A stretch of DNA of 64,000 nt. Source: Fretibacter rubidus (lineage in GTDB: Bacteria; Pseudomonadota; Alphaproteobacteria; Caulobacterales; Maricaulaceae). The stretch's first letter is position 1; each line of letters starts with the position of its first letter. The stretch spans positions 310,001-374,000 of the forward strand of contig NZ_CP163423.1 of the NCBI RefSeq assembly GCF_041429785.1. The letters run 5' to 3'. A model generated the notes under the pieces. The model made no database searches. It worked only from the letters and a program-made list of their open reading frames with translations, and was not told where the DNA came from. A program made the position numbers and the translations under genes. Of the stretch, positions 56,675 to 61,763 are shown one piece after another.

Positions 56675-57568
56675 ATGACAGATAATAATTGGACACTCGG
56701 TATTCTTGGCGGCTCTGGGCTTTACGACTTGGACGGGCTTGAAAACCCTGAATGGATAGAGATTGACACGCCGTGGGGTAAGCCGTCGGACGCCATTCTT
56801 TTTGCAGAACTTGAAGGTGTGAAGCTGCGGTTTTTACCGCGCCATGGTCGCGGTCATAAACTCAGCCCAACTTCGGTGAATTACCGCGCCAATATTGACG
56901 CGCTTAAACGGGCCGGCTGCACAGATATACTGTCATTATCCGCTGTTGGCTCGCTACAAGAACCCTATGCGCCAGGTGATTTTGTGATTGTCGATCAATT
57001 TATTGACCGTACATTTGCGCGTGAAAAATCATTCTTTGGTCCGGGTATGGTCGCGCACGTCTCTGTTGCGGACCCTGTTTGTGACCGGCTAGCGCGACTG
57101 GCAGGTAATGCGGCCATTGCGGCCGGCGCCCATGTCCACCGGGGCGGCACCTATTTGGCAATGGAAGGCCCGCAATTCTCAACCCGCGCAGAGAGTGAGC
57201 TTTATCGGGGTTGGCGCTGCGATGTTATCGGCATGACAAATATGCCAGAGGCGAAGCTCGCCCGCGAAGCTGAACTGCCTTATGCAACAGTTGCTATGGT
57301 GACCGACTTTGATTGCTGGCACCCCGGTCACGAAAATGTCGATGTCTTTGCGGTCATTGCGACACTGACAAAAAATGCCGAAATTGCCAAAGGCACGGTC
57401 AGAGAAATCATCAAAATCATTGCGCAAACCCCACGCACGCCTAGTCCAGCGGGGATTGAAACCAATTTAGATGCCGCACTGATTACCGCGCCTGACGCGC
57501 GCGACCCAAAGGTCCTGGCCAAGCTTGACGCCATATTGGCGCGGGTTTTAGGAGCTGACAAAGCCTAG
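56675..57568 (+). CDS. mtnP: S-methyl-5'-thioadenosine phosphorylase
   Basis: A 297-residue enzyme that splits methylthioadenosine, a by-product of polyamine synthesis, into adenine and methylthioribose-1-phosphate. Signatures are LGILGGSGLYDLDGLE, FLPRHGRGHKLSPTSVNYRAN, YLAMEGPQFSTRAESELYR and IGMTNMPEAKLAREAELPYA. The length fits. It is followed 37 bases later by the two-gene GrpE-like/Hsp70-like set on the same strand. Confidence 0.95.
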   Translation: MTDNNWTLGILGGSGLYDLDGLENPEWIEIDTPWGKPSDAILFAELEGVKLRFLPRHGRGHKLSPTSVNYRANIDALKRAGCTDILSLSAVGSLQEPYAPGDFVIVDQFIDRTFAREKSFFGPGMVAHVSVADPVCDRLARLAGNAAIAAGAHVHRGGTYLAMEGPQFSTRAESELYRGWRCDVIGMTNMPEAKLAREAELPYATVAMVTDFDCWHPGHENVDVFAVIATLTKNAEIAKGTVREIIKIIAQTPRTPSPAGIETNLDAALITAPDARDPKVLAKLDAILARVLGADKA

Positions 57569-57605: not shown

Positions 57606-58499
57606 ATGACCCAGACCCTTCCCGCGACTGTGCCGTCCCTTGCGCGTGCTTTTGAGCCAGAGCGCGACAGGCTGCGTAACGCGCTTAGCACAGAGAGCAA
57701 CACTGCGGATATCGTGGTGATAGAGGCCCGCCGTGCGCTGGATAAAGCGGGCGCGAGTTTTGCGAACACGACAGATGACCCGACACTTCAAAAAGCAGGA
57801 TTATGGCTGATTGAAATGGTCAAATCTGGCGCAGCTGTCCTTGACCACGGCACAGAGGCGCGGGTGCAATGGACAGAGGTTGCGGGCCCGAAAACCTCTA
57901 TTTGGACAGGTCGGGGCCTATTTTACGGCGCGGCCGCTGTGTTTGGTGCTGCGGGTTTTGTGCAGGGCTCTGCCCTTGTGATGTTTGCGGCCGCGACGCT
58001 GGCGGGGCTTCGCGCCTTTGACCCTGCCAAGTGGAAGCAGATGTTGCCGCGCTTGCCCTTTGTGAAAAAATCAACGCCCTTGCTAGAGGATGCAGCCGGC
58101 CGCGCGATGCGAGTGAACGCCACGGTCGAAGTGGACGCCGACGGATTTATCAATGCACTCACTGATGCCTTGCATACCGCTGATCATATTCTGCTGCGCT
58201 TGGCTGAACCTGTGGCCGAGACCCATTGGCGCGATGATCGGCAGTTGATGGGGATGGTGCAAAACCTGCTCGAAGCGCAAGGCGCGGGTGATGGGGATTT
58301 CGCGCTAAAAATTATAGATCAAGAGCTTGGCTCTGTTCTGGACGGGCAAGGCGTGACCCGTGTGGATTATTCGCGCAAGACCGCGCATCTATTTGATAGC
58401 CTGCCAGCGCTGGGCGAGAGCGAGACGCGTCAAGCGGCCCCTGCGCTTATGGTGGGTGATACGGTCATTCGGCGCGGCACAATATGGGCCAAGGTTTAG
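57606..58499 (+). CDS. Membrane protein with GrpE-like C-terminal region
   Basis: A 297-residue protein. Residues 1-95 are helical and soluble, and a membrane hairpin spans about 102-138. From about 170 a long helix is followed by a small beta-type end, QELGSVLDGQGVTRVDY and onward to TVIRRGTIWAKV. This ending has the order seen in GrpE: 'L-x-x-v-L-x-x-x-GV', a 'FDxLPAL' strand and a final 'v-[IL]-R-R-G-x-[IV]-W-x-K-V'. The next gene codes for an Hsp70-like ATPase nine bases away, so a role as its membrane-bound exchange factor is an attractive inference, not proven. Confidence 0.65.
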   Translation: MTQTLPATVPSLARAFEPERDRLRNALSTESNTADIVVIEARRALDKAGASFANTTDDPTLQKAGLWLIEMVKSGAAVLDHGTEARVQWTEVAGPKTSIWTGRGLFYGAAAVFGAAGFVQGSALVMFAAATLAGLRAFDPAKWKQMLPRLPFVKKSTPLLEDAAGRAMRVNATVEVDADGFINALTDALHTADHILLRLAEPVAETHWRDDRQLMGMVQNLLEAQGAGDGDFALKIIDQELGSVLDGQGVTRVDYSRKTAHLFDSLPALGESETRQAAPALMVGDTVIRRGTIWAKV

Positions 58500-58508
58500 G
58501 GGGCGGTC

Positions 58509-60425
58509 ATGAGCGAGAGACGCGACGCTGTTGAATTTGTTGGCCTCGATTTAGGTCACGGCGAAACCGCTTTGGGCCGTGCCTACGGGCGGTCTATGCG
58601 CGAACCTGAAATTTTAGAATATCGCGGTGAACGCAGTTTTGTGACCGCCGTGGCCCAAACGGATAAGGGCCTGAAGATCGGGGCCGATGCCGTTAATTTG
58701 GCCGCGCTTGGCGGTGGGCAAGCGCAAGTCTGGGTTAAATTTAAAGACCGCGATTTAAGCGCAGGCGACGTTGAAAAACCGACCCGTCTTTTCACGCAAG
58801 AGCTTATTAAAGGCCTATCAAAAGACGGTAAAATTCGTGGTGCCAAACAAAGCAAATTTGTTATCGGCTGCCCCTCTGGTTGGGACAAGGATACACGGGC
58901 GCGTTACCAAGCCCTGTTTGAAGATGCGGGGTTAAAGTCAGTGCGCATCGTGCCCGAATCGCGCGCGGCTTTGATGACTGCGCTAGAGCAAGGCTATCTT
59001 ACGCTCGACGCCGCGCGGGCATCAGTTCTTATCGTTGATATCGGGTCGAGCACGACGGATTTTACCTATTGCCGAGATTTAGACGCCGAAGACGTGGGGC
59101 ATAATTTTCTCGGCTCTGGCTTGCTCGATACAGAGATTTTTGATTTGAACCTGGCGCGTCAATCTGAACGGGCCAAGATTGAAAAACTTATCAAACGTTT
59201 TCCACATTACCGCCCCATCATGGAATATTGGTGCCGCCAAGTGAAAGAGCAGTTCTTTAACGGCGAAGGTGCAGCGGTCGAAATGATTAAACGACTACCG
59301 ATTGACGGCGGCGTTTTGTTTGACATTCGTTTTGATCAAGACGACGCGGATGAGGTGCTCTCACGCCCGCTGGAGGCGCTGAACGGGTTTACATGGCCCG
59401 CCGCCTTTTCTTTTGCCCTGAAAGAAACGATCGATAATTTGGGCGGGCGCGCGCCTGAAACCGTGCTGTTAACGGGGGGCGCATCACGCTTACCGCTTGT
59501 GTTGCCAGCCTGTGAAAAGGCGTTTCCAAAAGCGCGGATTGTGCGCGGCGCAGAACCAGAATTTGCGATTGCGCGGGGGCTGGCTTGGCTAGGACGGTTT
59601 GAACATTTACATGCTAGTTTTAAATTATCAGTGGCTGAATTGATGGGTGTCGATGGCCCCGTTCATAACAAAGCTGCCGCTGCGAGCGCCGCTTTGGGCC
59701 AGAGCCTCGCCCCTGTTCTTGTGGACGCCTTGACCGAGCATTGCATTGTGCCCGCTTTTCGCGATTGGCGTCGCGGCAAAATCGACAGCCTGGATCAGGT
59801 TGAGGCCGCTTTGGCAGACCGTGTTAAATCATGGCTTTCCAGCGTGGAGGCGCAAGCAACGTTGCGGCCCATTATCAAAGGCTGGTTCGCGGGGTTACAG
59901 CGCAAAATTGAACAAGACACAGATCCCTTGTGCCGCGATCACGGATTACCCGCCATGGTTCTATCGCTTGATGACAGCCAGCATGTCAGCCGTCATTTGG
60001 AGGGGTTGACCGTGGCCGCGCCGCGTGTCGCCAGCCTAGAGTCAGACACGGCGCTACTGGGCACATCACTGACGGCCATTATCATTGGCGCGTTGCTCGC
60101 CCATGCCAATTTACTCGCGCCGCTGTTGACCAATCCTATTGGCCTTGTGGTGAGTGGGGCTGTGGGTGGGGCAGGATTTCTGTTTGGGCGCAAAGCGCTT
60201 GAAGGCAAGTTCCGTAGCGCCAATGTGCCCGTTATCGCGCGTCAGGTTATGACCGATACGCGCATTCGCAAAGCGGCGCATAAGCAACGCGGCGCTTTGA
60301 TAGAGGCCGTGACAGAGGCTTGGGATAGTGCCGCGTCAGAACGCTTTACCGAAGAGCTAACCCAAACGTTATCAACCGCCCTATCTGAGCGCGCTGATGA
60401 CAGAGCGATTCTATTTCTAATTTAA
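58509..60425 (+). CDS. Divergent Hsp70-like ATPase with C-terminal membrane hairpin
   Basis: A 638-residue protein. Its N-terminal 400 residues show the actin/Hsp70 fold: phosphate-1 FVGLDLGHGETALG (10-23), a connect-like VIGCPSGWDK (118-127), phosphate-2 VDIGSSTTDF (176-185) and adenosine loop LTGGASRLP (321-329). There is no recognisable substrate-binding domain. The C-terminal part is helical with a hydrophobic, Gly-rich hairpin (about 518-565) that can enter a membrane, then basic helices. It is not DnaK, whose length and C-terminal domain differ. It follows the GrpE-like membrane gene by nine bases. Function unknown; an ATP-driven membrane process is inferred. Confidence 0.8.
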   Translation: MSERRDAVEFVGLDLGHGETALGRAYGRSMREPEILEYRGERSFVTAVAQTDKGLKIGADAVNLAALGGGQAQVWVKFKDRDLSAGDVEKPTRLFTQELIKGLSKDGKIRGAKQSKFVIGCPSGWDKDTRARYQALFEDAGLKSVRIVPESRAALMTALEQGYLTLDAARASVLIVDIGSSTTDFTYCRDLDAEDVGHNFLGSGLLDTEIFDLNLARQSERAKIEKLIKRFPHYRPIMEYWCRQVKEQFFNGEGAAVEMIKRLPIDGGVLFDIRFDQDDADEVLSRPLEALNGFTWPAAFSFALKETIDNLGGRAPETVLLTGGASRLPLVLPACEKAFPKARIVRGAEPEFAIARGLAWLGRFEHLHASFKLSVAELMGVDGPVHNKAAAASAALGQSLAPVLVDALTEHCIVPAFRDWRRGKIDSLDQVEAALADRVKSWLSSVEAQATLRPIIKGWFAGLQRKIEQDTDPLCRDHGLPAMVLSLDDSQHVSRHLEGLTVAAPRVASLESDTALLGTSLTAIIIGALLAHANLLAPLLTNPIGLVVSGAVGGAGFLFGRKALEGKFRSANVPVIARQVMTDTRIRKAAHKQRGALIEAVTEAWDSAASERFTEELTQTLSTALSERADDRAILFLI

Positions 60426-60441
60426 AGGCTCATCACGGCAG

Positions 60442-61071
60442 TTAAAATTCGCCGTCTTTTCTGCGTGATTCTGGCTTGTGGGTCTTGGGAACGACATCAA
60501 ATTCGACATCATTATCGGCGTCAGTCTCGATGATAATGCGTGTTTTCTTGCGCCCATTTTCAATGATGGTTTCTTTTTCGATCCGCGTGTTTTTGCCCAT
60601 ACTCTCAATAGCTAACACGTCTTCGCCGTCCGTTTCAAAAGACCCCAGTTTCTTTCCATCAAATGACAGGCTCATTCCGTCGCCCGTATCGACAATTTCA
60701 ATGTCTTCGGCCATGCCAATGACCATATCGGCCAAGCTCTCAAGCAGACCTGATTCGGCGAGCATGTTTTGAATATCTTTGGCGGCCTCACGGAGCGCTT
60801 CTGGGTCTTCGATAATCTCAATCCGTCGCGATGTCGTGCGCTCTGATGGGGCAGATTTCTGGCTACCGCGCTGCATCAAGCGACTTTCTGTCTTGGCGCC
60901 CTCTATGGCTTCGCGTAATTCCTTGGCATGTTTCTCGAAATAGGCTTCGAGGTCTAAATCTGTCTCGGTTGTTGATTGTTTAGTTTTGTCATCATGCGGA
61001 TGCGGGTCTGCAAAAGCGGGCGCTGAAAAAATTGCAGTAGCAAGTAGGGACATAGCGAGCGTGCGAAACAT
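60442..61071 (-). CDS. Exported acidic protein of unknown function
   Basis: A 209-residue protein with a signal peptide (MFRTLAMSLL to PAFA), then His/Asp-rich (DPHPHDD), a charged helical middle and a strand-rich end (RIEKETIIENGRKKTRIII). I see no known domain. It is convergent with the Hsp70-like gene, only 17 bases away, and has no terminator there. A periplasmic location is likely. Confidence 0.7.
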   Translation of the reverse strand: MFRTLAMSLLATAIFSAPAFADPHPHDDKTKQSTTETDLDLEAYFEKHAKELREAIEGAKTESRLMQRGSQKSAPSERTTSRRIEIIEDPEALREAAKDIQNMLAESGLLESLADMVIGMAEDIEIVDTGDGMSLSFDGKKLGSFETDGEDVLAIESMGKNTRIEKETIIENGRKKTRIIIETDADNDVEFDVVPKTHKPESRRKDGEF

Positions 61072-61169
61072 AAAAGATCTCCAGTCATTAAACTTACATT
61101 AACCATAATCCTTGGCCTTGCCCGCGTAAACGGCTTTCCACAGTGCTCAAAGCCGCCTATTGTTGCCTT

Positions 61170-61763
61170 ATGAAAGACCGTTTCTTTTATCCGATCGCCG
61201 CGCTGATTATTGGCGCTATGATTTATTTTGCGCTGTCATTGTCAGTCGTCTCGGCCCCTGTTGATGAAAATATATATGAGCTATCGGGGGAAACTCTTTC
61301 GCAATTATTTCCGTCACCGGGTACGACGGTGCAGCTTGCCAATGATCCCGGTGGGGCTGTGGCTTACGCCGTCATGGGCGCACATGCAGACCGCGCGGGT
61401 GTAGAGCCCTCAGCTGGTGTTTTTGGTACGTTGGGCTCTGTGCACGAAGCCAGCTTTGCGGGGCATCCCATTCGTATCACCATTCGCGCGCGCGCAGGGC
61501 AATTTGATCCAGCAGGGGCCATGGAAGCTGGATATTTCACGGCGGGCAGTGGTGACAGCCCGTGGACGTCATTCACGCTGACCTCTGATTTTTCTGATCA
61601 TAGTTTTATTTTTACCCCTGGCGAGATTACACAAAAGGGCGGCACAGATTTTGTTGGTATTTGGCCTGATAAATCCGGCAAGGGCGGGACAATTGACGTC
61701 ATGTCTATTCGCGTTGAGAAAATTATTGAGCCTGTTTTGCGCGGCGTCTCAAGGGCCGAGTGA
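61170..61763 (+). CDS. Single-pass membrane protein with beta-sandwich-like domain
   Basis: A 197-residue protein with an N-terminal membrane helix (FYPIAALIIGAMIYFALSLS) and a domain of about 150 residues rich in Gly, Thr and Phe strands (HPIRITIRARAG, SFTLTSDFSDHSFIF, DFVGIWPDKSGKGGTIDV). The strand pattern is reminiscent of carbohydrate-binding modules, but I cannot name one. ATG 61170 is chosen for the basic start KDRFF; an in-frame ATG at 61143 is possible. It overlaps the convergent AGE-epimerase gene by 15 bases. Confidence 0.65.
   Translation: MKDRFFYPIAALIIGAMIYFALSLSVVSAPVDENIYELSGETLSQLFPSPGTTVQLANDPGGAVAYAVMGAHADRAGVEPSAGVFGTLGSVHEASFAGHPIRITIRARAGQFDPAGAMEAGYFTAGSGDSPWTSFTLTSDFSDHSFIFTPGEITQKGGTDFVGIWPDKSGKGGTIDVMSIRVEKIIEPVLRGVSRAE

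Follow-up and report, generated by a model that had tools for sequence, protein, structure and literature searches.

GrpE is the nucleotide exchange factor of DnaK and contacts lobe IIB of Hsp70, whose second half is the substrate-binding domain and whose interdomain linker is a conserved hydrophobic sequence (VLLLDV type). HscA and HscC also possess substrate-binding domains, and Ssz1, which is eukaryotic, ribosome-associated, and not a membrane-hairpin protein, employs the Hsp70 fold outside the classical cycle. One review describes GrpE as the only Hsp70 exchange factor of bacterial genomes, the GrpE β-domain as mediating most of the contacts with DnaK, and HscA and HscC as independent of GrpE (PMC4753570); another assigns a single common topology, with the nucleotide-binding domain first, to the Hsp70s characterized to date (PMC12987570). 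Here we analyze two adjacent open reading frames (ORFs), ORF1 and ORF2, from Fretibacter rubidus. They lie in a window of 64,000 nucleotides (the whole stretch of DNA analyzed, positions 310001–374000 of a genome that is one contig of 3.45 Mb). The pair resembles DnaK–GrpE in that ORF2 has an Hsp70-type nucleotide-binding domain and ORF1 a C-terminal GrpE-like β-domain. It differs in that the ATPase is modeled without a substrate-binding domain, that both proteins have hydrophobic hairpins, that ORF1 has no Pfam GrpE signature and no long stalk in its model, and that the two genes are tightly coupled while the genome retains DnaK-type and GrpE genes elsewhere. We consider it likely that the pair forms a dedicated Hsp70-type ATPase switch, anchored in the membrane and lacking a peptide-binding domain, together with a GrpE-like exchange factor of its own. 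If so, it breaks both published patterns, that of a single bacterial exchange factor and that of a single Hsp70 topology. In a literature search by title and abstract opening, with subscription journals mostly outside its reach, we found no description of a membrane Hsp70/GrpE-like pair among the papers listed. The author of an earlier note on this DNA, made from the sequence alone, knew of no system with this architecture.

The Hsp70-type ATPase ORF2

Both genes are read from the + strand; 9 bp separate the ORF1 stop codon from the ORF2 ATG, and their positions and spacing are as the earlier note gave them. The features of the pair are as follows, with structural elements taken from AlphaFold2 (AF2) models and confidence given as the predicted local distance difference test (pLDDT).

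57606..58499, + strand: ORF1, 297 amino acids, hairpin protein whose C-terminal domain is GrpE-like (open frame; AF2 mean pLDDT 88)
57606..57899, + strand: ORF1 residues 1–98, N-terminal helical domain, three helices plus a strand (DSSP assignment, AF2 model)
57906..58016, + strand: ORF1 residues 101–137, hydrophobic hairpin whose two helices are joined by a very short turn (AF2 helices 101–120 and 123–137)
58224..58496, + strand: ORF1 residues 207–297, GrpE-like short helices and β-domain (Foldseek and VIA-align to 3a6m; hhalign with controls)
58509..60425, + strand: ORF2, 638 amino acids, hairpin-bearing Hsp70-type ATPase modeled without a substrate-binding domain (Pfam HSP70; PDB profile matches; AF2 mean pLDDT 82)
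58527..59609, + strand: ORF2 residues 7–367, Hsp70-type nucleotide-binding domain including an IIB-like subdomain (VIA-align, Foldseek)
59610..60053, + strand: ORF2 residues 368–515, helical region where a substrate-binding domain would be (DSSP, helices only)
60069..60182, + strand: ORF2 residues 521–558, hydrophobic hairpin (hydropathy segments 521–539 and 540–558; low pLDDT in the model)
60288..60419, + strand: ORF2 residues 594–637, long C-terminal helix (AF2 model)

ORF2 matched Pfam HSP70 with 26.3 bits against a cut-off of 20.6 (E value 2.8e-6), and a 52-sequence profile of its family matched solved DnaK at E 2.7e-14 over profile positions 6–361. A ten-sequence profile recovered 115 distinct PDB sequences at E ≤ 0.01; among the best 60 of these, 58 are named as Hsp70, DnaK, BiP, or Ssb type, and 5tky and 1qqo are without a name. 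A single-sequence phmmer search of the PDB with ORF2 gave no match at E 0.001. The three nucleotide loops that the earlier note had read as those of an Hsp70-fold ATPase are indeed present, at residues 14–21 (DLGHGETA), 177–185 (DIGSSTTDF), and 320–329 (LLTGGASRLP). The motifs PESRAAL and RQVKE are also kept.

The structural comparisons bear on whether the pair might instead be a membrane-bound cytoskeletal actin-like system (of the MreB, FtsA, or ParM type) with a membrane adaptor and no Hsp70 module. In favor of that explanation, MreB_Mbl is the second Pfam match of ORF2 (E 1.1e-4, below cut-off), the NCBIfam PRTRC_D and MreB models match ORF2 below their cut-offs, and the best Pfam matches of a Nostoc relative are to MreB_Mbl and ParM models, also below cut-off, with HSP70 not among them. 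However, in a Foldseek search with the AF2 model of ORF2 (E 2.9e-16) all 50 of the best 50 rows were Hsp70-type, and VIA-align gave Z 29.6–31.7 in its best 50 entries, nearly all of them Hsp70, Hsp110, BiP, or Ssz1/RAC (ribosome-associated complex). The IIB segment of ORF2 also aligns to DnaK without a large deletion, and the ORF1 partner resembles an Hsp70 exchange factor more than a filament adaptor. We regard the cytoskeletal explanation as very improbable.

After the Hsp70-type ATPase domain, the AF2 model of ORF2 consists of helices only, with zero β-strands from residue 350 to 638 (low-confidence stretches at residues 502–521 and 538–562). This indicates that, as modeled, ORF2 lacks the β-sandwich substrate-binding domain with its helical lid, which agrees with the earlier note. 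The best profile match to DnaK stops at position 361, and a pattern search for a VLLLDV-type linker in ORF2 gave only LIVDI within phosphate-2, with nothing similar in residues 347–400. The aligned range in VIA-align extends to residues 634–638 of ORF2 in several rows. The hydrophobic hairpin that the earlier note had placed at the C terminus of ORF2 is present, but about 80 residues follow it before the end of the protein. At least one hydrophobic segment occurs somewhere in the protein in all 52 sequences of the ORF2 family alignment (A5, n=52) and two occur in 49 of them; the relatives listed have one or two between residues 502 and 566.

Other atypical Hsp70-type proteins offer partial parallels. 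Like HscA and HscC, ORF2 is an additional Hsp70-type ATPase alongside DnaK, but it differs from them in its missing substrate-binding domain and in having a GrpE-like partner. Entries for Ssz1 in the ribosome-associated complex (5mb9, 6sr6, and 4gni) rank second to fourth for ORF2 in VIA-align, with Z values of 31.0–31.6 that are tied with the rest.

The GrpE-like domain of ORF1

ORF1 matched no Pfam model at E ≤ 1, NCBIfam gave one chance-level match far below cut-off, and the ORF1 profile gave a single chance match to PDB sequences (E 0.59). Its AF2 model was made from an alignment of 65 sequences (the window's own and 64 of the 76 available) and comprises, in order, three helices, a strand, the two-helix hairpin, a helix at 140–149, and a strand, followed by helices 178–200, 212–226, and 230–247 and by six short strands between residues 250 and 295. 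A hydrophobic segment (Kyte-Doolittle ≥ 1.2) was found at least once in 62 of the 65 sequences and twice in 33; the window's own ORF1 has one over the threshold (109–127). The modeled hairpin of ORF1 and its C-terminal end, VIRRGTIWAKV, match what the earlier note had described. Many conserved positions of ORF1 lie in the β-domain (F263, D264, P279, A280, and G291).

In structure searches, GrpE came first for ORF1. Foldseek placed chains B and A of Thermus thermophilus GrpE (3a6m) at ranks 1 and 2 of 350,542 chains, with probabilities of 0.98 and 0.97, where the remaining rows shown were at most 0.33. VIA-align placed 3a6m_A at rank 1, with Z 7.9 and a root mean square deviation of 3.5 over 85 residues, aligning ORF1 207–297 with GrpE 69–168. 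VIA-align rows within ORF1 1–207, among them dynamin stalks and BAR domains (Z ≤ 7.8), are at the level usual for helical bundles, and we made no use of them.

Profile comparison, run independently of the structure searches, likewise ranked GrpE at the top and located the match in the same residues. With hhalign, the last ~90 residues of the ORF1 family scored 35.3 (probability 65%) against an alignment of 55 GrpE sequences, and 36.2 (73%) after trimming of columns. Controls were lower: reversed GrpE scored 16.5, and 150 column shuffles gave a mean of 11.9 and a maximum of 19.5. The GrpE-like order that the earlier note had seen in the last 80 residues is therefore beyond chance. When ORF1 was compared with all 20 families of at least eight members obtainable from genes of the retrieved loci, ORF1 itself among them, GrpE was the best non-self family (35.0) and the runner-up scored 20.7. 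A second, separately built alignment of the ORF1 C terminus (last 125 residues) gave 31.7 (45%) against GrpE, compared with at most 19.1 in 18 control families and at most 21.4 in 100 shuffles; for ORF1 members outside the window's clade alone, the score was 26.3, while the same kinds of control reached at most 18.6 (18 families) and 17.6 (100 shuffles). The hhalign probability was 40–73% for whole-family and window-clade alignments. Thus, the C-terminal β-domain of ORF1 resembles the GrpE β-domain in both fold and profile.

Several observations weigh against reading ORF1 and ORF2 as an exchange factor and its ATPase. The E values that Foldseek gives the two 3a6m chains, 0.095 and 0.19, are weak; the chains belong to a single PDB entry, and the best 50 rows include no further GrpE entry. 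An unrelated row reaches a VIA-align Z of 7.8, level with the 7.9 of 3a6m_A, and values below 8 are common for models without a clear match; the tied row and the other rows shown fall inside ORF1 1–207. The hhalign probability is 14% for ORF1 members outside the window's clade, 5.7% with another full-length ORF1-family alignment, 2–5% for separate cyanobacterial, clostridial, and proteobacterial subsets, and 0.8% for the two f5 sequences. At E ≤ 1, the Pfam GrpE signature (PF01025) was detected in neither ORF1 nor five relatives. Phosphate-1 of ORF2 reads DLGHG, in contrast to DLGTT of DnaK, and because HG replaces the threonines, catalysis by ORF2 may differ from that of DnaK.

The weak Foldseek E values, the middling Z, the low hhalign probabilities that certain alignments and subsets gave, and the missing Pfam match would all fit an alternative in which the likeness to GrpE is a convergence of small helical and β C-terminal domains, and ORF1 is an unrelated membrane partner of ORF2. 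We consider convergence very improbable. Separate sequence and structure comparisons agree on GrpE and on the residues concerned, the shuffles and the 18 other families score far below GrpE, and ORF1 adjoins the gene for an Hsp70-type ATPase. In our judgment, which is all that this grading expresses, the C-terminal domain of ORF1 is probably homologous to GrpE.

Conservation of the pair and a model for its action

Across 199 related genomes, including the window's own, we found strong matches (E < 1e-40) to ORF1 in 47, and strong matches to ORF2 in the identical 47. In all 47 the two are on the same contig and strand, with 4–404 bases (median 20) separating the matched stretches. Outside the 47, eight genomes have weak ORF1 matches (E > 1e-5), and five have only weaker ORF2 matches (G033, G071, G130, G161, and G186); in G130 and G186 the gene immediately 5' of ORF2 encodes a protein of ~260 amino acids with a similar layout, which the ORF1 search had missed. 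Weak BLAST matches to ORF1 207–273 in 497–524 amino acid frames of six f2 genomes were set aside as chance, because L036, the sole locus read, resembles histidyl-tRNA synthetase (named by eye); other weak ORF1 matches are in G135 (an 852 amino acid frame with a stop) and G014.

A scan of species genomes found at least 521 ORF2 relatives, the named ones at 62–77% identity belonging to Hellea, Robiginitomaculum, Algimonas, Litorimonas, and uncultured Caulobacterales/Hyphomonadaceae. Among the best 80 of these relatives, which span several phyla, 76 have a frame of at least 200 amino acids directly 5' on the same strand, with a 4-base overlap in 22 of the 76 pairs. In three of the other four loci (L070, L077, and L073) ORF1 is truncated or frameshifted, and in L105 the sequence ends 133 bases upstream. 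ORF1 is present in all 45 loci of the window's clade. Genes commonly apart, or no structural match of ORF1 to GrpE, would by the earlier note have refuted its interpretation; both checks instead agree with it, although the structural match is weak by absolute measures. A 958 amino acid frame in G114, also seen in L093, suggested a natural ORF1–ORF2 fusion, and we rejected this: in L093, ORF1 is read in a different frame and shares 4 bases with ORF2.

Alignment of 21 of the upstream frames showed that cyanobacterial and clostridial loci, as well as L102, repeatedly have an ORF1 ending of the F(D/E)xxP...PAL...(R/K)G type; at the (R/K)G site L104 reads AG, and the two f5 sequences retain PALV without RG. 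The pair is patchy in Cyanobacteria, because the ATPase was found in only 5 of 146 genomes (centre genome counted), with the partner at its main place in all five. G705 has a second ATPase match, which looks like an ordinary Hsp70 and was left uncounted. A predicted conjugative plasmid of Calothrix carries a copy of the ATPase with 82% identity to the Nostoc one, annotated as a hypothetical protein. Trees of ORF1 and ORF2 built for 51 shared loci have 32 of 48 splits in common, whereas 200 label shuffles gave at most 3. ORF1 and ORF2 are inherited jointly, the pair may also be transferred jointly, and it is an old unit across widely separated bacterial groups. The pair persists over large evolutionary distances, and neither Pfam nor NCBIfam has a model for ORF1.

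Conservation also bears on whether ORF1 acts as an exchange factor at all. A GrpE-homologous domain could instead serve without exchange, as a membrane receptor or clamp that fixes ORF2 in one state within a scaffold or sensor complex. ORF1 evolves faster than ORF2 (median patristic ratio ~1.5), and its single-chain model has no long GrpE-type stalk, the hairpin being followed by the three separate helices described above; both points would suit such a role. On the other hand, the nucleotide loops of ORF2 are conserved across phyla and therefore fit a cycling ATPase, and many of the conserved ORF1 positions fall within the β-domain, the part that makes most of the DnaK contacts in GrpE according to the review (PMC4753570). 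We think a receptor or clamp without exchange unlikely.

If ORF1 is an exchange factor for ORF2, the pair might work as follows. The helical region of ORF2, in place of the peptide-binding half, would dip into the membrane through its hydrophobic hairpin, and ORF1, anchored by a hairpin of its own, would sit in that membrane too and present the GrpE-like β-domain. ORF2 would bind and hydrolyze ATP, and the movements of its lobes would pass to the helical, membrane-inserted part or alter the packing of the two hairpins. ORF1 would then open lobe IIB of ORF2 and promote ADP release, as GrpE does on DnaK. Adjacent and tethered, the two proteins would have a membrane client or the membrane itself as their target; the client may be the membrane or membrane proteins. 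The fold likeness and the pairing on which the earlier note had built its interpretation hold up, whereas nucleotide exchange and a part in membrane remodeling or assembly are what we infer from them.

A more far-reaching proposal, to which we give an even chance, is that the pair is a second, membrane-embedded Hsp70/GrpE-type machine apart from DnaK: a two-gene unit found across bacterial phyla that has discarded peptide binding and couples the Hsp70 ATP cycle, with a membrane-tethered GrpE-like factor to reset it, to a hairpin within the membrane, serving membrane remodeling, lipid handling, or membrane-protein assembly. The pair offers a natural system in which to ask what the Hsp70 ATP cycle does without a bound peptide, and whether GrpE-type exchange was recruited beyond protein folding.

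Genomic surroundings and further observations

The window genome has one GrpE gene, at 3303085, and a full-length DnaK-type Hsp70 at 3432147 (E 2.8e-270), both far from the pair. In genome G634 there is no GrpE match at E ≤ 10 near the pair (ORF2 at C1:7490404-7492323). At 56675-57568, 37 bp upstream of ORF1, is a gene that looks like a phosphorylase of the mtnP type (a name given by eye). An operon with this gene was rejected as a general trait, as none of 45 related loci has it within at most ~5 kb upstream (less at contig ends).

Two apparently exported proteins (judged by eye) of 209 and 206 amino acids are encoded downstream of the pair, at 60442-61763. Among the 45 clade loci, some of which are short, the 206 amino acid gene is near the pair in 34, the 209 amino acid gene in 19, galU in 18, and an epimerase-like gene in 16 (galU and the epimerase-like gene named by eye). 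Because the 206 amino acid gene, galU, and the epimerase-like gene are often near the pair, the neighbors within the window's clade hint at the cell envelope. Against a general reading of this kind, no third gene is common across lineages among 35 distant loci. The Nostoc loci have neighbors in common with one another.

Scans with defense-system models gave only LeoBC, for the C-terminal part of ORF2, at E 0.0094 and nothing for seven other proteins; the LeoBC match was not used as evidence. A scan of viral contigs gave 50 pattern matches, none of them a relative.

Another atypical Hsp70-like ATPase with its own cochaperone-like neighbor gene is found at L049 (5678-9069) in genome G161, where an ATPase of 579 amino acids is followed directly by a J-domain-like gene (by eye). 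It differs from the present pair in the J-domain-like nature of the neighbor and in an ordinary DLGTTN in the ATPase.

An extra, divergent GrpE (E 8.8e-14 to 8.4e-20, above the Pfam cut-off) is present in 9 of 60 genomes of one phylum (G580, G592, G595, G598, G601, G606, G617, G621, and G625). L102 (1-8996), filed as a Klebsiella pneumoniae metagenome, has the gene order of the Deltaproteobacteria contig L103 (5000-11200) and nearly equal gene sizes, and for this reason its label is probably wrong. Downstream of the pair, both contigs have genes of 428 and ~310 amino acids, which in L103 match CDP-alcohol phosphatidyltransferase and, below cut-off, LiaF-TM.

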